Shown here: positions 15,281 through 35,383 of the stretch, one piece after another
How positions within the stretch are numbered: the first letter of the stretch is position 1
How the letters are laid out: each line of letters begins with the position of its first letter
Assembly: GCA_016778985.1 (NCBI GenBank)
Contig: JADHOM010000001.1
Span: forward strand, 62,001-126,000
Direction of reading: 5' to 3'
DNA from: Alphaproteobacteria bacterium
GTDB taxonomy: Bacteria > Pseudomonadota > Alphaproteobacteria > Puniceispirillales > UBA1172
Length of the DNA stretch: 64,000 bases
The notes under the pieces: generated by a model
The model's database searches: none
What the model was told of the DNA's origin: nothing
What the model saw: the letters and a program-made list of their open reading frames with translations, nothing else
Translations under genes and position numbers: made by a program

Positions 15281-15362
15281 TATGGGTTCTCTTTTCTGAT
15301 TGTTGAGTTTATTACCTAAAAACTGTAAGGTTCAACAAGTTTTAATAGTGGTATTTTTTGTT

Positions 15363-17132
15363 ATGTCTGACATTCATAAACTGAAAGCGTTACATTCTGA
15401 AGGTAAAATTGATAAAGCCCTTAAACTTTCAAACCAATTATTAAAAAGAAATCCAAATGATTATCAGCTTCTTTACGCCCATGCTTCGTTACACAATAAA
15501 GCTGGGTTAGTTAAAGTTGCATTACGGTCTTATCTAAAAATACATGATCTCAATTCAACTGATATCACTATTGTTCTGGCTATTGGCACATGTTATTCAA
15601 AAATTGGTGAATATGAGGCGTCATTAAAATTTTTTCATAATGCCGATAAGCTCAGGCCAAATGATCATGAAATTATCATGAATATTGGGGTGTTATACCG
15701 TCTTATTAACAACGCCTCAGAATCAAAACTTTATCTGGAAAAGTCCGTTCAGCTGGCACCTAAAAAAGCCGAAGCATTTCATAACTTGGCTATAACCAAT
15801 GAGCTTGATGAAGATTTTGAAACAGCATTAAAAAATTACAGAAAAGCGGTTGAGCTTGATAATAAACACTATCGTGCGCTCGGTAATATGGGTGTTGTCT
15901 ATTCAAAGCTAAAAGAGCTGGACCTTGCGGAAGAAGCCTTTATAACCTCGCTTTCCATTAATCCAAAATATGATCTAGCATTAAAAAATCTTGGCATTAA
16001 TTATGTCTATCAAAAACGACTAGATGAAGCAAAAGCATTGCTTTTTAAAGCAATTGACCACCACCCTAATTCTCCAATGTTCTATAATAACATCTCACAA
16101 TTAAGCAATTTGACAAAAGACGAATTGAAACAAGTTAGAGTTGCTATTGAAACCGCCCTCTCATCTAAAGCTAAAATAGTATCCATCGAGCAGATGTATT
16201 TTGCATTGGGAAAAATATGCCAATCTCTTAAAGACTATAGAGCCGCTGAGGCAAGTTACCTCAAGGCCAATATGCTTGTTTGTAAAATGAAGCCTTATGA
16301 TCGTTCATTTGTATCTAACTACTTTGATTATTCAAAATATCTTATTTCTCATTTAGACACGCCTTTTGAAGGCCATGTTTCTGGTGAAAATTTTGTCTTT
16401 ATCGTGGGTATGCCAAGATCAGGAACCACTTTGCTAGAATCCCTATTATCAATGCATAAAAAATTGATACCCGGTGATGAATTACCTTATTTCAATACTA
16501 TCTGTTTTGGTGAATTATTTAAAAATAAACGTTATATTGGACAACCGACCACTGATAATCTTTCTGTTATTTCTGATTATTATGTCACGAAAACATCAAC
16601 GCTTTTTTCGAAGCCAAATATACTAATAGATAAGTTGCCACACAATTTCAGATGGATACCTATAATTTCTGCCGTGTTCCCAAAAGCAACAATTGTACAC
16701 ATATCAAGAGACCCTATTGATAATTGCTGGTCACTTTTTAGAGAAAACTTTAATAACAATAGTCATGAATATAGCTACCAGTTGAAAACATTGGCAGAAT
16801 ATTATGGCAAATATCAGCAATTGATGTCACTTTATGAGGAAGGGGGAGATTACAACATGATTGATGTCACATACGAAGATCTGGTGGATCAGCCGATAAC
16901 TACTATTAAAAGCATATTTCATAAAATGAATATTAATCCTGATGACTTTGACGAAGCATCGCGTGAGAATAATTATTATTCAAAAACAGCTAGCTCTGTT
17001 CAGGTTCAGCAACCTGTTTCAAAAACATCTGTTCAAGGCTGGAAAAAACATTCTGACTTTTTAAAACCCTTAGTGTTAAATCTACAAAAACATCAGAAAA
17101 ATCTCGGACTACCTATTTATGATGATAACTAA
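15363..17132 (+). CDS. Tetratricopeptide-repeat sulfotransferase
   Basis: The 589-residue protein has two parts. Residues 1 to about 330 are tandem TPR units. From about 340 a sulfotransferase domain follows, with the PAPS 5'-phosphosulfate loop FIVGMPRSGTTLLESLLS near residue 349 and the 3'-phosphate motif HISRDPIDNCWSLFRENF later on. The family transfers sulfate from PAPS to hydroxyls of sugars, peptides or lipids; the acceptor cannot be read from sequence. There is no signal peptide from the ATG at 15363. A TTG start at 15300 would add a short hydrophobic segment but has no ribosome-binding site. The gene is visibly richer in A and T (many AAA, AAT, TTA codons) than its neighbours, which suggests transfer or relaxed constraint. 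It ends 10 bp from a second, inverted TPR-sulfotransferase. Confidence 0.9.
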   Translation: MSDIHKLKALHSEGKIDKALKLSNQLLKRNPNDYQLLYAHASLHNKAGLVKVALRSYLKIHDLNSTDITIVLAIGTCYSKIGEYEASLKFFHNADKLRPNDHEIIMNIGVLYRLINNASESKLYLEKSVQLAPKKAEAFHNLAITNELDEDFETALKNYRKAVELDNKHYRALGNMGVVYSKLKELDLAEEAFITSLSINPKYDLALKNLGINYVYQKRLDEAKALLFKAIDHHPNSPMFYNNISQLSNLTKDELKQVRVAIETALSSKAKIVSIEQMYFALGKICQSLKDYRAAEASYLKANMLVCKMKPYDRSFVSNYFDYSKYLISHLDTPFEGHVSGENFVFIVGMPRSGTTLLESLLSMHKKLIPGDELPYFNTICFGELFKNKRYIGQPTTDNLSVISDYYVTKTSTLFSKPNILIDKLPHNFRWIPIISAVFPKATIVHISRDPIDNCWSLFRENFNNNSHEYSYQLKTLAEYYGKYQQLMSLYEEGGDYNMIDVTYEDLVDQPITTIKSIFHKMNINPDDFDEASRENNYYSKTASSVQVQQPVSKTSVQGWKKHSDFLKPLVLNLQKHQKNLGLPIYDDN

Positions 17133-17142
17133 TAAGCATCTG

Positions 17143-18654
17143 TCATTGGCCAAATTTTAAATTATAGGCTTCATTATATTGCGGGTAATTTTTAGTTTCA
17201 TCACTTGCTTTTTTTATAGATGTCCTGATTTGGCTATTTGTTATCGTTTGAACAACTCGTTTGTTATGTTCAATATCTACACATTGTTTTTCAAAATCTA
17301 GATTACATTTATTCAATAATTGCTTAATTTCTTGCTCTGGCTGTTGGGCTAAATCTTCATAACTCACATTAATGATATCGTCATATAACGCGTTCCAGTG
17401 TTTCATATGATGCTGATAGAGATTATAATATGAAAAAATCTCATCAAGGTTGAATGAAAAATGACAGCCAACAGGAAATAAGTGTTTAAAAACTGAAAAG
17501 CAGACCGATTTAGGATTGCGATGGACATGTATAATTTTCGCATTTGGGAAACAAGTTTTTATCACACCAACCCAGCGAAAGTTTAACGGGTTTTTATCCG
17601 TTATCATTTTTTTGGTCTTTGTGATTGCCCTAAGACGATTGGTGTAATGGTGTCTAATATCAACGAAATCTGGAGCTAACTGGTGTTTCTGATCGGTTTT
17701 TATGATCGCTTCTTCTAGGAACGTTAACTCACCTGCACCAAATATCTGACTATGGCCTGAAAGAATCTGTTCTATCAAAGATGTACCGGACCGAGGCATG
17801 CCAATAATAAAACACATTCTGGCATCCTTGGGGATTTCATAATAATCAATGGTTTTATGCCATAATTTGAAGCGTTCAAATTGCTCCGCTTCTGTATCTA
17901 TATTAAAATTAATAGTCGATCTAAAATGCGCTTTACCTCGTGTCCAGTATGTATACGCTTTATTATATGATTTTAAATTAGCATAAGCATTACCAAGAGC
18001 AAAACTCAGATATGATGCGTCTTCCGGTGACTTGGCAGCTTTTAGTGATTTTTCCATATGAGTGATATGATTGTCTTTTGCAGAGAACGTGTTCAACCTG
18101 CTAAATTCAAAAACCGCTTTTGAATGGTCAATTTCTGATCTAATGATGTCTTTGTAAAATAATTTAGCCTGCTCAAAATCACCAAAATCTTGCAGAAGAT
18201 TAGCAAGATTATACTTTATTACATGACTATTTGGAAATTTGCGAAGACCATCATAAAGCACTCTCTTGGCAAAATGGAATTTCTGCAAATGTTTCAAACT
18301 GAGAGAGAGCGTCACATAGTTTATTTCAAAATGATCATCTAATGATCTGGATGCCAAAAAATGATGTAGTGCAGATTTATAATCATTACACTTAGCGTAT
18401 ATGCAGCCAATATTATATTCTGTTTCAGCTTGAAATTTTTTATCCTCAGAGGGTGTGGCTTCAAGAATTGATTTATAGATATCTAAAGCTTTTTGATATC
18501 GCTTCTTACCAAGATATGCTTTGCCTATAATAAGCAATATTTTAATGTCAGTCGGAAATAATGCACGATACCTGTCTGCCTTTTGCAGTATCTGTTCGAA
18601 CGCACCTCTGTTGAAAAGATGCGAAAGCGTTTTGTAGTTAAGAGGTTCTAGCAT
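17143..18654 (-). CDS. Second tetratricopeptide-repeat sulfotransferase
   Basis: The 503-residue protein repeats the architecture of its convergent neighbour: TPR units in residues 1 to about 260, then a PAPS-dependent sulfotransferase with CFIIGMPRSGTSLIEQILS near residue 284 and IIHVHRNPKSVCFSVF for the 3'-phosphate. The two proteins differ clearly outside these motifs, so this is not a recent duplication. ATG at 18654 was chosen; a GTG two codons upstream is possible. No signal peptide or membrane segment is present, so it should act in the cytoplasm or at the inner face of the membrane. It is AT-rich like its neighbour. The acceptor is unknown; a surface polysaccharide is one reasonable guess. 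Confidence 0.9.
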   Translation of the reverse strand: MLEPLNYKTLSHLFNRGAFEQILQKADRYRALFPTDIKILLIIGKAYLGKKRYQKALDIYKSILEATPSEDKKFQAETEYNIGCIYAKCNDYKSALHHFLASRSLDDHFEINYVTLSLSLKHLQKFHFAKRVLYDGLRKFPNSHVIKYNLANLLQDFGDFEQAKLFYKDIIRSEIDHSKAVFEFSRLNTFSAKDNHITHMEKSLKAAKSPEDASYLSFALGNAYANLKSYNKAYTYWTRGKAHFRSTINFNIDTEAEQFERFKLWHKTIDYYEIPKDARMCFIIGMPRSGTSLIEQILSGHSQIFGAGELTFLEEAIIKTDQKHQLAPDFVDIRHHYTNRLRAITKTKKMITDKNPLNFRWVGVIKTCFPNAKIIHVHRNPKSVCFSVFKHLFPVGCHFSFNLDEIFSYYNLYQHHMKHWNALYDDIINVSYEDLAQQPEQEIKQLLNKCNLDFEKQCVDIEHNKRVVQTITNSQIRTSIKKASDETKNYPQYNEAYNLKFGQ

Positions 18655-18846
18655 CTTCACTTACTATAATTGATTAGCAATCAGATCAACTATTCAATTA
18701 TAGGTTACCTTTAAGGCTGTTGTAAATATGCAACACTAGAATTTAATTGTATTCATACATTAGTTTATATTAATTTAATAAATCATTTATTATGTATAAG
18801 TAATTTAGCCAATAACGGCATAACTACAAATAATAGAGGATTTATT

Positions 18847-24668: not shown

Positions 24669-25670
24669 TCACAGATTTTTATCAGTAAGCCTGCCAATAA
24701 TCTCATCAAATTGGTCAAGTGAGCGGCAGCTAATCATAATCCGGCCAGACTCGCTTTTATGATCAAAAGCTAATTTAACGGCCATCCCTAACTGCTCAGC
24801 GATTTGTTTTTCCGTTGCCTTCAGATCAGCATTCTCTGGTTCAGGAGATTGGGGTTTTAGCCTGCCTTTTTTAACCAGCTGTTCGGCTTGTCTGGCATTT
24901 AACCCGCGCGTCTTGATCATAGTGGCCAGGGCTAAGGCATCTTGATGACCAATTAGCGGCCGTACCTGCCCCATAGAAAGCTCTGATCTTGCCAGCATGT
25001 CCCTGATTTTACTTGGTAAAGTCAAAAGACGCATAGTATTTGACAAATGGCTTCTCGATTTGCCAACAACTTCTGCCAAATCTTCTTGCTTATAATCAAA
25101 CTCAGCCATGAGGCGCTGATAGCCTTCGGCTTCTTCAATGATGTTGAGGTCTTGGCGTTGAATATTTTCAATCAAAGCCATCTCAGCCGCTTGTTGCTCA
25201 TTGGTGTCTCTTATGACAACAGGAACATCATGGCGCTGGGCTAATTGCGCCGCCCGCCACCGACGTTCCCCAGCAATGAGCTGATAATGATCTGCTTTGT
25301 CAGGATGTGGACGCACCAAAAGCGGCTGAATGATGCCGTGATTGGTAATGCTATCCGCCAATTCTTTTAACTCATCTGGCGAAAAATAGCGTCTTGGCTG
25401 CCACGGATTAGGTTCAATTTTTTCAATAGCGACAATCTGATCGCTCATATGGGAAGATGGATTGGCATTTATCTCAGCCCCATTACTGTTCTGGTTACTG
25501 TTCAGGGCGGCTTTATCTGCCTGCTCACCGCTTAGAGCGGTTAACGCTGGCGCATCACCAAGCAAAGCCTTTAATCCACGGCCAAGCCCTTTTTCGCTAG
25601 TTTTGCGAGGCGTTGGTGTTTTATTCAGCGTATTTTTGGTGTTTTGATGAGGTTTATCGGGTTTTGCCAT
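24669..25670 (-). CDS. parB: Chromosome-partitioning protein ParB
   Basis: ParB is a CTP-dependent clamp that loads at parS and spreads to form the partition complex. The 333-residue protein has the N-terminal ParA-activating segment GLGRGLKALLGD, the CTP-binding core with NPWQPRR and GERRWRA, a helix-turn-helix around LAEVVGKSRSHLSNTMRLL and a C-terminal dimer domain. The chosen ATG has AGGA eight bases upstream inside the end of parA; a start nine codons upstream is possible. It overlaps parA by 17 bp. A DnaA-box match (TTATTCACA, 24665-24673) overlaps its stop codon. Confidence 0.97.
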   Translation of the reverse strand: MAKPDKPHQNTKNTLNKTPTPRKTSEKGLGRGLKALLGDAPALTALSGEQADKAALNSNQNSNGAEINANPSSHMSDQIVAIEKIEPNPWQPRRYFSPDELKELADSITNHGIIQPLLVRPHPDKADHYQLIAGERRWRAAQLAQRHDVPVVIRDTNEQQAAEMALIENIQRQDLNIIEEAEGYQRLMAEFDYKQEDLAEVVGKSRSHLSNTMRLLTLPSKIRDMLARSELSMGQVRPLIGHQDALALATMIKTRGLNARQAEQLVKKGRLKPQSPEPENADLKATEKQIAEQLGMAVKLAFDHKSESGRIMISCRSLDQFDEIIGRLTDKNL

Positions 25671-26442
25671 TGTTTTTTTCCTGTTTGATGACTTCACCGG
25701 CTAGGGCGATATAAGCTTCGGATCCCGCGCAATTGATATCATATAATAATACCGGAACACCATATGATGGCGCTTCAGATACTCTGACATTTCGGGGAAT
25801 GACCGTCTTATAGACAAGCGATCCTAAATGCTCACGCACATCTTTTGCGACCATAGATGACAGATTATTGCGGCTATCATACATCGTCAAAACGAGGCCC
25901 TTTATAGTCAATCGTGGGTTAAGCCCTTCTCTGACCATTTCGACCGTATCCATCAGTTGCGATAACCCCTCTAGAGCATAATATTCACATTGCAGCGGGA
26001 TAAGAATGGAATTAGCAGCCGCCAAGGCATTAACCGTCAATAATCCAAGCGATGGCGGGCAATCAATAAAGACATAGTCATAATCAGTTTTTATATTTTT
26101 AATCAATGCTTTAAGCCGATTATTACGATCCTTCTTGCTGGCCAGCTCCAATTCAACCGCTGATAAGTCAGTTGATGCCGGAATAACATCGACGCCTTTT
26201 ATGTTTGTGCTGATAATGGCTTGATCAATGGTAATCGTGCCTGAGATAAGCTGATAGAGATCATCATCGCGTTGCTTTTTATCTATGCCGAGGCCTGTGC
26301 TGGCATTACCTTGAGGGTCAGCATCAATGACGAGCACAGAGCGCCCTGTTGCCGCTAAAGCTGTTGAAAGATTGACGGTTGTCGTGGTTTTCCCAACCCC
26401 CCCTTTTTGATTACTTACAGCAATAATTTGTTGTGGAATCAT
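25654..26442 (-). CDS. parA: Chromosome-partitioning ATPase ParA
   Basis: ParA is a deviant-Walker ATPase that binds DNA non-specifically and pulls ParB-parS complexes through the cell. The 262-residue protein has the deviant Walker A KGGVGKTTTTVN (about 12-23), DADPQGNASTGLG and the Walker B region FIDCPPSLGLLTVNAL. Lacking the N-terminal extension of plasmid Type Ia proteins, it is a chromosomal ParA. The start overlaps the rsmG stop as ATGA, and the end overlaps parB, making rsmG-parA-parB one translational unit. Confidence 0.97.
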   Translation of the reverse strand: MIPQQIIAVSNQKGGVGKTTTTVNLSTALAATGRSVLVIDADPQGNASTGLGIDKKQRDDDLYQLISGTITIDQAIISTNIKGVDVIPASTDLSAVELELASKKDRNNRLKALIKNIKTDYDYVFIDCPPSLGLLTVNALAAANSILIPLQCEYYALEGLSQLMDTVEMVREGLNPRLTIKGLVLTMYDSRNNLSSMVAKDVREHLGSLVYKTVIPRNVRVSEAPSYGVPVLLYDINCAGSEAYIALAGEVIKQEKNNGKTR

Positions 26443-27181: not shown

Positions 27182-27197
27182 TGTTTCACGTGAAACA
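27182..27197. promoter_or_regulatory. parS centromere site 1
   Basis: Exact 16-bp palindrome TGTTTCACGTGAAACA, the universal bacterial parS consensus. It touches the mnmG stop codon (27198) and lies 20 bp upstream of rsmG. ParB encoded 1.5 kb away should load here. Confidence 0.97.
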
Positions 27198-29265: not shown

Positions 29266-29281
29266 TGTTTCACGTGAAACA
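29266..29281. promoter_or_regulatory. parS centromere site 2
   Basis: A second exact copy of TGTTTCACGTGAAACA, 2.1 kb from the first, in the mnmE-mnmG gap and about 5 kb from the predicted oriC. The pair brackets mnmG. Confidence 0.97.
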
Positions 29282-30679: not shown

Positions 30680-30762
30680 ATTAATTCCTTCATAGTAATT
30701 TTTTTATATAGCCCATTTTCATGCCAGCATTAGGCTATGCGTATATTATATTGGGTAAAATC

Positions 30763-31302
30763 ATGCCACATAGAACAGATATGACTCCGTTCGGTTTCAT
30801 TAGCATGTCATCAAACGGAAAAGCCATCACTAATCTTACATGGGTGACCACGGATACACCGCAAATTGACCATGATCCTATTCTTGATCAAGCCTTTCAG
30901 GAATTACACGAATATGCCAAAGGCGAACGCCAGCAATTTAGCGTACCTGTTGATTTAGAAGATATCTCAGCGTCGCATCAAGACTGGCTTCAGGTATTAA
31001 GGCAAGTCGGATATGGTGAGACGATCAGCTATCAAGAATTAGCTAGCCGTGCGGGTAAGCCAAAGGCAGCACGTGCCGCAGGCTCGGCTTGTGCGCGAAA
31101 CCCAGTGCCAATTATTTACCCATGCCACCGCATCTTAAAAAGCGATGGCGATTTAGGTAATTTTGGGGCAATAAGACAACTCAAGCCTGACGATGGCCGC
31201 AACTTGAAGATCAAAGCAAAGCTCATTGAACATGAAAAGTTGTGTTGGAGCAATGATGCCATAACGCACACTAACGCTATCACTGACGTTACAATGCGCT
31301 GA
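30763..31302 (+). CDS. ogt: Methylated-DNA--protein-cysteine methyltransferase
   Basis: The protein repairs O6-alkylguanine by transferring the alkyl group to its own cysteine. The active-site motif is present as PCHRI near residue 124, preceded by VGYGETISYQELA, with ARAAGSA as the DNA-recognition helix. The usual LGGYxxG after the active site is replaced by LGNFGAI. The start is uncertain: ATG at 30721, 30763 (chosen) or 30781. The last 25 residues are extra and variable. The only plus-strand gene between mnmE and the origin; it is divergent from mnmE and convergent with rho. Confidence 0.9.
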   Translation: MPHRTDMTPFGFISMSSNGKAITNLTWVTTDTPQIDHDPILDQAFQELHEYAKGERQQFSVPVDLEDISASHQDWLQVLRQVGYGETISYQELASRAGKPKAARAAGSACARNPVPIIYPCHRILKSDGDLGNFGAIRQLKPDDGRNLKIKAKLIEHEKLCWSNDAITHTNAITDVTMR

Positions 31303-31355: not shown

Positions 31356-32607
31356 TCATGGATTGGAAAAAGTCTTCATTGCTCTTCGTTTGTTTGAGTT
31401 TATCAACAAGGAATTCCATTCCATCAACCTGACCCATTGGCATCAATATCCGGCGCAATATCCACATTTTGGATAAGGTGTCTTTATCAATCAGCAGCTC
31501 TTCCTTACGGGTGCCAGAACGAGTAATGTCAATCGCAGGGAAGATCCGCTTATCAGATATTTTACGATCCAGGATAACCTCAGAGTTACCTGTGCCCTTA
31601 AACTCTTCAAAGATCACTTCATCCATGCGGCTACCAGTTTCGATCAGCGCCGTTGCAATAATGGTTAGCGATCCGCCTTCCTCAATGTTTCTAGCCGCCC
31701 CGAAGAAGCGTTTTGGCCGTTGCAGGGCGTTAGCGTCAACACCGCCTGTCAAGACCTTCCCGGACGAAGGAACAACGGTATTATAAGCGCGCGCCAAGCG
31801 CGTTATACTATCGAGTAAGATAACAACATCGCGCTTATGTTCAACCAAACGCTTGGCTTTTTCAATAACCATATCAGTGACTTGGACATGGCGTGCCGCA
31901 GGCTCGTCAAATGTTGAGGAAATGACTTCACCATTAACCGAGCGCTGCATATCGGTCACTTCTTCTGGGCGTTCATCGATAAGCAGAACAATCAAATACA
32001 CCTCAGGGTGGTTTGATGATATGGCATGAGCAATAGATTGTAGCATCATTGTCTTACCAGTGCGCGGCGGCGCCACAATCAACCCACGCTGACCTTTGCC
32101 CATTGGTGAGACCAGATCAATTACACGCGGTGTATAGTCTTTGTTATCAGGACTGAACGGCAATTCGAAGGTTAGCTTTTCTTGTGGATAAAGCGGCGTC
32201 AAATTATCAAAATTGATACGGTGACGAACAGCCGATGGGTCTTCAAAATTAACCTGTTCTACCTTCAGTAAGGCAAAATAACGCTCGCCTTCTTGAGGCG
32301 CTCTAATTTGACCGTCAACGGTGTCTCCAGTCCGCAGTGAAAAGCGTTTAATCTGGCTAGGTGAGACATAAATATCATCAGGACCAGGCAGATAATTCGA
32401 TTCTGGTGAACGCAGAAAGCCAAAGCCATCAGCTAGCACTTCTAAGACGCCGCCACCGTAAATAGGGACATCATCCTCAGCCAGTTGCTTAAGAATAGCA
32501 AACATCATATCCTGCTTACGAAGAGTAGATGCGTTTTCTATCTCAAGCTCTTCAGCATAGGACAGGAGTTCGGCAGGCGTTTTTTTCTTGAGGTCTTGAA
32601 GATTCAT
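31348..32607 (-). CDS. rho: Transcription termination factor Rho
   Basis: Rho is the hexameric RNA helicase that ends many transcripts. The 419-residue protein has the N-terminal Rho domain and an RNA-binding CSD-like domain (GFGFLRSP). The ATPase has Walker [13 protein letters not shown], Walker [10 protein letters not shown] and the R-loop region SGTRKEELL. Length is standard, without the insertions of some lineages. A consensus DnaA-box sequence (TGTGGATAA, 32183-32191) lies inside the coding region. It follows hemJ by 86 bp on the same strand. Confidence 0.98.
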
Positions 32608-33148: not shown

Positions 33149-34174
33149 TCACTGATAGGTTTGACGAAGATGCCGAAGCAATTCTTCAACATGTTTAATC
33201 AGCGTAAACTGACCGATCCCATGTCCTAAATTAAAAATATGTGGTCTTTTGCGAAATGCTGAGATGATCTGATCTGCTGCCTCACACATGGATCGCCCGC
33301 CTGTCTCAACCGCAAGCGGATCAAGATTGCCTTGAACAACAACATTTTTTGGCAAATGAGCATCGAGCCAAAACGGATCAACTGTGTGGTCAACTGCTAA
33401 AACATTACAGCCAGTGGCATGGACGTATTCATCAAAGCCGCCAGATAAACCTTTGGGAAAAGCGATGACCGGCAAGTCAATGCCGCGAGCGCGAAGCCCG
33501 CTTATAATACTTGCCACAGGGTCAATAAGATACCTGTGCCGCAAAGTTGATGGTACTACGCCTGCCCAACTGTCGAAAATCATTAATATATCGGCGCCAG
33601 CCTTGGCTTTGCCTGCCAATAATTCGACTGATGCTGAAACCAAATGCTGCATGAGCAGATCACATGCTTTAGGGTCTTGCCAAAGCCATTTCCTTGATAT
33701 GGCGAAATCGCGGCTTGAGCCGCCTTCCAGCATATAGGTTGCGACTGTCCACGGTGCCCCGCAAAACCCAATTAAGGCTTTATCACTGGTCAGATTAACG
33801 CGTGTTTTAGTAATTGCATCACAGACTGGCTGAAGTTTTTTCATTAAATCGGCATTATTAGGGACAACTAAATCAGATGGATGCTTTAATGCGGTTAGTT
33901 TAGGCCCCTTACCAGTGATGAAATGAACGCCCCTATCCATAGCCCAAGGGATCATTAATATGTCTGAAAAAATAATGGCTGCGTCAAAATCAAAACGGTT
34001 TATTGGTTGTATCGTTGCTTCTGATGCTTTTTCACTATCAAGGCAATAACTGATGAAATCTGATGTTGTTTCCCGTAATGCTTTATATTCAGGTAAATAG
34101 CGACCTGCTTGTCGCATAAACCATATTGGAGGTAGTGTGAATATGGCACCGTTAATTGTATCGCGTATTTTCAT
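33149..34174 (-). CDS. hemE: Uroporphyrinogen decarboxylase
   Basis: HemE removes four carboxyl groups from uroporphyrinogen III to give coproporphyrinogen III. The 341-residue protein starts with PPIWFMRQAGRYLPEY, which contains the substrate-binding Arg residues, and has FSDILMIPWAM and GFCGAPWTVATYM. Length is standard. Its promoter must lie in the adjacent predicted oriC; in Caulobacter, hemE transcription starts within the origin. AGG lies seven bases before the ATG. Confidence 0.97.
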   Translation of the reverse strand: MKIRDTINGAIFTLPPIWFMRQAGRYLPEYKALRETTSDFISYCLDSEKASEATIQPINRFDFDAAIIFSDILMIPWAMDRGVHFITGKGPKLTALKHPSDLVVPNNADLMKKLQPVCDAITKTRVNLTSDKALIGFCGAPWTVATYMLEGGSSRDFAISRKWLWQDPKACDLLMQHLVSASVELLAGKAKAGADILMIFDSWAGVVPSTLRHRYLIDPVASIISGLRARGIDLPVIAFPKGLSGGFDEYVHATGCNVLAVDHTVDPFWLDAHLPKNVVVQGNLDPLAVETGGRSMCEAADQIISAFRKRPHIFNLGHGIGQFTLIKHVEELLRHLRQTYQ

Positions 34175-34264
34175 AATACTACCTATATAAGTATATATAT
34201 AAATATATAAAGGAGGATGTTGTTGTTGTCGGCTGTAAAACTGGATTAGCAGTATGTTAACAGA

Positions 34265-34273
34265 TTATCCACA
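34265..34273 (+). promoter_or_regulatory. DnaA box (TTATCCACA)
   Basis: Perfect nine-base match to the bacterial DnaA consensus inside the predicted oriC. Confidence 0.85.
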
Positions 34274-34451
34274 GATGTTTTCCCGTAAGTTAACCTATTT
34301 AACTAATTGTAAATAAATATGAAATTATAGTTATCTAAGTTTTTATAATTGTTAATAGAGGTTTATACACCGCTTAACATCATTGTTGAAAAATAACAGC
34401 ATAACTGTGCTAACGTCATCATTATTCGCCATAAATTGTTTTATCCTATTG

Positions 34452-34460
34452 TTATCCACA
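34452..34460 (+). promoter_or_regulatory. DnaA box (TTATCCACA)
   Basis: Second perfect match, same orientation as the first and 179 bp from its end. A degenerate copy (TTATCCTAT) begins 11 bp upstream. Confidence 0.85.
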
Positions 34461-34555
34461 AGTTATTATCACTTTTCGGGAACGTCATTTAGACATTGCT
34501 ATATGCGCCCATTTTTATATTAATGGTGAGACTAACGCTAAAGCGATGCTGAAAA

Positions 34556-35383
34556 ATGAATGCAAAACAGACGATACATATCCATCTCATTTCTGACGCG
34601 ACAGGTGAGACAACTCATCTCTTAGCGCGCGCCGCCTTGGGTAAATTTACTGCGACCAGAGCCATAGAGCATGTCTGGACATTAGTGCGGACAATGGATC
34701 ACCTCGACGTCATAAAAAGGGAAATCGCCGAACATGGCGGGGTTGTTTTTTACAGTATTTCCGACCCTGATATCCGCGCCGCGTTAGAGCAATTTTGCCA
34801 GCAAAAGAAAGCCCCTCATTTGAGTATCCTTGATCCTGCGGTACGAACGCTTTCCCAGGCTTTAGGCAAGCAAGCGACTGCACGTGTTGGTGCCCAGCAC
34901 AGAATGGATGAAGCCTATTTTAACCGCATGGAAGCCTTGGAGTTCGCAGTCCATCATGATGATGGTCAGGCAATGTCATCTGTCCATACCGCTGATATCC
35001 TGCTGGTTGGAGTATCACGAAGTTCAAAAACACCGACTTCTATCTATTTGGCAAATAGAGGGTATAAAGTTGCTAATTATCCATTAGTTCCGGGGATTAC
35101 GCCGCCAATTGAGCTGATGAGAAACAAGGATGTTTTGGTTGTTGGCTTAATAAACGAAGCCAGACGGTTATCGCAAATCAGACGCAATCGGCTTGAAAGC
35201 ATGAATGCTGAAGAAAATATGGAATATGCGGATATTCGGAAGATCAATGATGAATTGAACCAAGCTATCAAATTATTCAAAGAGCAAGGTTGGCCGATCA
35301 TAGATGTATCGCGGAAATCAATTGAAGAAACCGCCGCCGAGATTATCAATATTTATACCCTTTGGATTGAGGAAAAATCATAA
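34556..35383 (+). CDS. ppsR: Pyruvate,phosphate dikinase / PEP synthase regulatory protein
   Basis: This bifunctional kinase/pyrophosphorylase (DUF299) switches PPDK or PEP synthase on and off by ADP-dependent phosphorylation of a Thr. The 275-residue protein has the N-terminal ISDATGETTHLLARAAL motif and the nucleotide-binding loop GVSRSSKTPTSIYLA near residues 151-165. Length is standard. A homologue is the first gene clockwise of the Caulobacter origin, which supports the oriC call. The stop codon shares a base with the maf start (TAATG). Confidence 0.95.
   Translation: MNAKQTIHIHLISDATGETTHLLARAALGKFTATRAIEHVWTLVRTMDHLDVIKREIAEHGGVVFYSISDPDIRAALEQFCQQKKAPHLSILDPAVRTLSQALGKQATARVGAQHRMDEAYFNRMEALEFAVHHDDGQAMSSVHTADILLVGVSRSSKTPTSIYLANRGYKVANYPLVPGITPPIELMRNKDVLVVGLINEARRLSQIRRNRLESMNAEENMEYADIRKINDELNQAIKLFKEQGWPIIDVSRKSIEETAAEIINIYTLWIEEKS

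Follow-up and report, generated by a model that had tools for sequence, protein, structure and literature searches.

The replication origins of Caulobacter and Rickettsia are flanked by hemE and a COG1806 gene (PMC1914354). In the DnaA-trios of Bacillus subtilis, Asn187 of DnaA makes contact with the middle adenine through that base's amino group, while Arg202 and Glu228 contact the G; a middle T or G impairs origin opening, whereas a middle C does not (PMC10721633). The published rule for this basal unwinding system (BUS) calls for at least three NAN trios (3'-NAN-5') within 16 bp of a DnaA box, with a usual spacer of 10-13 nt between trios and box (PMC8287927). In Thermotoga maritima, the origin trios read TAG TAG TAG (PMC10316083). 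Deviant trios without a middle adenine have already been suspected (PMC8287927), as has a range of recognized trio sequences (PMC10721633).

The hemE-ppsR gap as chromosomal origin

The window, i.e., the whole stretch of DNA that was analyzed, covers 64 kb (contig C10:62001-126000) of a 2.10-Mb, 43-contig assembly; among named relatives, MED595, a MAG of the SAR116 cluster, comes nearest (93% identity in ppsR). Within it, an intergenic region of 381 bp (oriC, 34175-34555; hereafter the gap) is situated between a divergent gene pair, composed of hemE on the minus strand (33149-34174; TIGR01464, 348.7 bits) and a ppsR-type gene for a PPDK/PEP-synthase regulator on the plus strand (COG1806/DUF299; 34556-35383; NF003742, 321.1 bits). 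The G+C content of the gap is 29.7%, vs. 45.9% in the window. The gene order around it reads parB-parA-rsmG-mnmG-mnmE-rho-hemJ-hemE // ppsR-maf-coaE-dnaQ-secB, and such a neighborhood, from parB to hemE and from ppsR to secB, forms the usual surroundings of alphaproteobacterial origins. The divergent hemE-ppsR pair is kept in the order, and most of the class sample has it too; dnaA is located on the same contig (C10:169.9 kb), 74 kb from the gap. The first-pass annotation had placed a parABS system 5-10 kb from the gap, and all of its parts were recovered: parB (24669-25697, minus strand; TIGR00180, 193.9 bits), parA (25654-26442, minus strand; assigned by its ParA/MinD-family ATPase matches and its position adjoining parB) and two perfect copies of parS TGTTTCACGTGAAACA (27182-27197 and 29266-29281). 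It had also seen gene direction reverse at the gap. This is true of hemE and ppsR, but the wider switch is imperfect, with 30721-31302 running on the plus strand to the left, and secB and fxsA on the minus strand to the right.

Several features of the surroundings stand apart from the origin. The gene at 30721-31302 encodes an O6-methylguanine-DNA methyltransferase and interrupts, on the opposite strand, the leftward row between mnmE and rho. An AT-rich island at 15300-18660 (about 34% G+C vs. 46%) carries two tail-to-tail genes resembling TPR-sulfotransferase fusions, and a porin-like gene comes next, as read by eye from the translations; the island was possibly acquired horizontally. Elsewhere in the order, ppsR was not found in any of the searched genomes of family f4 (G014, G017, G020 and others), so the hemE-ppsR landmark is unusable there. 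In family f3, the gaps L013 (G051), L017 (G055), L023 (G043) and L026 (G041) have G+C contents down to 18-21%, and the first of these is 550 bp long.

A replication origin between hemE and ppsR had been predicted, with cumulative GC skew as the proposed check, and the prediction stands. The assembly is unclosed, and the skew covers 360 kb of its own contig; over this run, the cumulative minimum lies at C10:95786 (window position 33,786), a point within hemE that is separated from the gap by about 390 bp (0.4 kb). Two-segment splits of the skew fit best at 95-103 kb (t about 7.9; block-permutation P = 0.001), a split at 96 kb being roughly equal to those at 97-102 kb, and the mean third-codon-position skew shifts from -0.062 at 80-100 kb to +0.070 at 100-120 kb. 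Two closed, single-contig relatives, each covered by 20 samples of 20 kb, switch at the same gene pair. In G004, the skew changes from -0.167 to +0.199 between the samples flanking hemE-ppsR, sharply near the origin and irregularly elsewhere; in G007, it changes from -0.059 to +0.060 across hemE-ppsR, with the reverse switch about half a genome away. Together with the conserved box positions and the conserved unwinding element described below, these skew patterns leave very little doubt that the gap is the chromosomal origin of this SAR116-clade alphaproteobacterium. Its location is textbook for Alphaproteobacteria, and it is chiefly useful as a confirmed start point for growth-rate (peak-to-trough) estimates in SAR116. 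The unwinding element matters more than the location: as an origin the gap is ordinary, and the novelty lies in its unwinding motif.

DnaA boxes and regulator sites

Two perfect DnaA boxes TTATCCACA had been noted, and both are exact and on the plus strand: box A (34265-34273), identical in 4/4 same-genus genomes, and box D (34452-34460), situated 187 bp farther along. In the same-genus genomes, and likewise in L007 and L009, the two boxes keep their plus-strand orientation and lie about 185-187 bp apart. Three weaker matches had been listed as well; all are present with two mismatches each, but only two of them are conserved, namely box B (TTATACACC, 34363-34371, plus strand), whose position is kept in the genus and the family, and box C (TTTTCAACA, 34384-34392, minus strand), whose position is kept by orthologues. 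Box B is one mismatch from the consensus in L003/L004 (TTATACACA), while box C corresponds to TTTTCCACA in L002 and to a minus-strand TTATCCACA or TTTTCCACA at a like position in L007-L009. Since boxes B and C match better boxes in relatives, they are probably real despite their weak sequence. The third match (TTATTTACA, 34308-34316, minus strand) is unconserved in orthologues and was rejected as a true box, being probably due to chance. Across the four same-genus gaps, all columns of boxes A and D are identical (100%), as are 89% of those in box B and 67% of those in box C. In place of the earlier impression of few DnaA boxes, orthologue comparison yields four conserved positions. In addition, a degenerate position (TGTAAAACT, five mismatches, 34234-34242, minus strand) stands where a trio-proximal DnaA box (TGTGGATAA on the plus strand) is found in other Alphaproteobacteria, as judged against L025, L145, L151, L186 and L191.

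The cluster of DnaA boxes in the gap exceeds chance: Markov sequences of gap composition contained a mean of 0.006 perfect boxes, and two were found in 0/5000. The third and last perfect box of the window lies at 32183-32191, inside rho and 2 kb from the origin, and the 2.10-Mb genome holds 17 perfect boxes vs. 7 for the reversed control word.

A full CtrA site (TTAA-N7-TTAA) is missing from the gap, as had been observed, and neither the IHF consensus nor GANTC was detected there. From the missing site and the few DnaA boxes, the first-pass annotation had suggested that initiation control may be simpler or use other proteins, a suggestion that is supported only in part. The genome encodes a CtrA-like regulator (279.5 bits, below the model's Rhodobacter cut-off, with the next regulator at 151.7) and GcrA (93.7 bits). 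Moreover, the full site is missing in 26/28 gaps of the order, and other alphaproteobacteria have been described as poor in such sites (PMC1914354); its absence is therefore not special to this genome. Considering that both regulators are encoded and the gap holds no full CtrA site, they probably do not act through such sites at the origin.

AT-rich block and trinucleotide run beside hemE

An AT-rich core had been among the features cited for the origin. The gap is indeed AT-rich, but the likeliest opening block is located beside hemE and not mid-gap, and the likely opening site at 34183-34231 had been overlooked. The predicted unwinding block (DUE; CTATATAAGTATATATATAAATATATAAAG, 34183-34212, plus strand) adjoins the hemE start and represents the least stable 30 bp of the 64-kb window by nearest-neighbor energy. 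Next to it is the G-phased run AGG AGG ATG TTG TTG TTG TCG (34211-34231, plus strand), a candidate DnaA-trio-like motif for the binding of DnaA to single strands, which includes three overlapping TTGT (34220, 34223 and 34226; span 34220-34229). Both strands of the 360 kb of contig were searched for an AT-rich 20-mer leading into five or more trinucleotides that have G in third position and lack C, and the only occurrence was at 34211; the chance of an AT block with at least five trios in Markov sequence of gap composition is about 5e-5. Column identity among the four same-genus gaps reaches 92% over 34175-34210 and 62% in the trinucleotide run, with mostly 31-48% elsewhere in the gap.

To the same element belongs a wider distribution across the class. 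A run of at least four trios after AT-rich DNA was found in 66 of 108 alphaproteobacterial hemE-ppsR gaps, where 1.4 would be expected and the opposite strand has 4; the unrestricted run, with first and middle base free, gave a weaker test (69/108, with 12 on the opposite strand and 11 expected). The scanners demand a fixed G, and the third position is hence beyond their test. Many relatives display the AT block, the trios, a short spacer and then TGTGGATAA, which is a DnaA box on the other strand. In the positive control, the dnaA-downstream regions of one Firmicute family, a canonical BUS was recovered in 25/25 Paenibacillus/Cohnella sequences (TAG CAG TAG GGG ... TGTGGATA), with canonical TAG/CAG/TCG trios preceding GGG and TGTGGATA.

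Considering these patterns, we hypothesize that the locus is best explained overall by a single origin with DnaA-trio-like opening beside hemE and a relaxed code, a reading that we regard as probable. With DnaA bound to boxes A-D (34265-34460), melting would take place in the AT-rich block next to hemE (34183-34212), and DnaA-ATP protomers would hold the plus strand of 34211-34231, one per trinucleotide; the held strand would then stay open and permit helicase loading, as in the DnaA-trio BUS. First melting would accordingly be expected at 34183-34231, with DnaA on the plus strand. The hemE-side element shares with the BUS its AT-rich DNA beyond the trios, the 3-nt phasing and the fixed G. At least three tandem middle-A trios were not found in its run, in which no trio has a middle A, nor was an intact, properly oriented DnaA box at a distance of up to 16 bp, where the genus has the degenerate TGTAAAACT. 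With no middle A and a degenerate adjacent box, the element falls outside the published BUS definition. It may work like a BUS or like the ssDUE recruitment of E. coli, the latter being possible because the run carries three overlapping TTGT.

In ssDUE recruitment, DnaA would remain on boxes A-D, the DNA would bend back, and the H/B motifs of DnaA would catch the TTGT of the T-rich strand once it has melted, in place of a filament that grows from an adjacent box. In E. coli, the ssDUE motifs are TTGT and TTATT (PMC5742627, PMC10316083); the gap contains eight TTGT on the run strand vs. one on the other, and the first 120 nt of the 108 gaps contain 113 vs. 48 on the opposite strand. The degenerate trio-adjacent box, the 33 bp between box A and the run, and the Lys at DnaA residue 202 common to E. 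coli and this genome fit such a mechanism too. We nevertheless consider it rather unlikely, as the BUS order is retained in many relatives, the 3-nt phase persists where TAG or TGG substitutes TTGT, and the IHF consensus was not found in the gap, although HU or other proteins might bend the DNA between the DUE and the boxes.

Opening on the box D side appears improbable. The minus strand to the right of box D reads GAT AAT AAC T TGTGGATAA, and this run is picked up by the permissive NAN rule in L001-L004, of which L003 and L004 reach six NAN. These canonical trios were rejected, however, as being at chance level: the chance of three NAN beside box D is 0.56, and that of six in L003/L004 is 0.06-0.08. 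Furthermore, the spacer is 1 nt vs. the usual 10-13 (PMC8287927), the run is absent in L007 and L008, and conservation is poor on the ppsR side (39% identical columns). Slightly less credible still is the view that the hemE-side block is just a promoter, leader peptide or 5' UTR, with a conservation unrelated to replication. The block does lie directly upstream of hemE, and ATGTTGTTGTTGTCG, with AGGAGG before it, could pass for the beginning of a short plus-strand ORF; yet the frame is unconserved, with in-phase TAG stops in most relatives, and the leader peptide was rejected. The element also recurs at the hemE-ppsR gap across the class, and its Firmicute counterpart adjoins dnaA, not hemE. 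Finally, it is extremely unlikely that the true origin lies elsewhere, e.g., at C14:42464-42484, where two perfect boxes 12 bp apart form the genome's only other tight pair, since this pair is intergenic, with a uvrB-like gene upstream of it and a uvrC-like gene immediately downstream (ORF reading), and both the skew minimum and the conservation of the hemE-ppsR architecture favor the gap. For the C14 pair itself (L309:2465-2485), a role in DnaA control of nucleotide-excision repair is possible.

Trio code, DnaA residues and known systems

If opening is DnaA-trio-like and takes place beside hemE, as we prefer to read it, the composition of the trios bears on how DnaA recognizes single strands. 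Middle bases were counted in non-redundant strings, with AGG, GGG, AAG and GAG excluded in all groups. The counts were A37 C8 G6 T2 in Firmicutes, where most G/T fall within the spacer by the box, T53 A44 G26 C2 in Alphaproteobacteria other than SAR116, and T12 A4 G1 C1 in the SAR116 order. Comparison of A+C vs. G+T between the groups yielded a Fisher P of 7e-10, for genomes that are related and not independent. The alphaproteobacterial trio code thus seems to be relaxed, with a fixed G and a middle A, G or T, almost never C, and is T-rich in the SAR116 order.

Next to these counts, the DnaA proteins themselves differ. Relative to the 8btg chain, the DnaA of this genome has N187 replaced by Y, N196 by R and R202 by K, while E183, I190 and E228 are kept. 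At residue 187, Y is found in 18/23 SAR116 DnaAs, the others having H (4) or N (1), and in 25/27 DnaAs from the rest of the Alphaproteobacteria, the remaining two having F; residue 202 is Lys in all 50 (23 SAR116 and 27 other). Asn187/Arg202 is found in 25/25 Firmicute DnaAs and, by alignment, in T. maritima DnaA (PDB 2z4r), and E. coli DnaA has Gln187/Lys202 (own reading against 8btg numbering). Across the few independent lineages compared, this distribution suggests a trio code set by residues 187 and 202, and Tyr in place of Asn187 could explain the relaxed middle base. One SAR116 genome speaks against a simple residue-187 rule: G019 (DnaA L223) has Asn187, yet its origin L024 is mixed (TAG TTG TTT TAG TGG). 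Tentatively, with somewhat less than even confidence, we suggest that alphaproteobacterial DnaA may follow a single-strand code 5'-[T/A][A/G/T]G-3', set by the replacement of Asn187 and Arg202, with this SAR116 genus as its extreme, lacking both a middle adenine and an intact anchoring box. If true, this different code would mean that the amine-contact rule of B. subtilis is not universal in bacteria. As a separate observation, the order members G012 and G018 (family f2) and G051 gave no DnaA-family match over threshold; this may reflect incomplete assemblies, and the absence is common to both f2 genomes.

The alphaproteobacterial series offers natural sequences and DnaA variants for testing the strand choice of DnaA. 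In addition, the signature of AT block and trios, unique in 360 kb here, may help to pinpoint origins in fragmentary marine genomes.

Compared with described systems, the gap resembles Caulobacter crescentus Cori and the Rickettsia prowazekii origin in its gene pair, its AT-rich block and its few DnaA boxes; Cori differs in that it carries an IHF site along with five for CtrA (PMC1914354), neither of which occurs in full form in the gap. With E. coli oriC, it shares a T-rich TTGT strand and Lys202, and E. coli box R1 matches the trio-proximal box of the gap's relatives in relative orientation; in place of L/M/R 13-mers and an IHF consensus, however, the gap displays 3-nt phasing. The Thermotoga maritima oriC (eTrio TAG TAG TAG) likewise carries at least three tandem trinucleotides in the DUE, which its DnaA needs in single-stranded form, but it differs in its TAG trios and in a DnaA that retains Asn187/Arg202. 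Bacillus-type trios have a middle A or C, in contrast to the A, G or T, almost never C, of Alphaproteobacteria. From the B. subtilis BUS, the gap differs in a run without middle A, a degenerate adjacent box and a DnaA with Tyr187 and Lys202, whereas it agrees with it in the AT-rich DNA, the G-phased run on one strand and the box further along, all in the same polarity.
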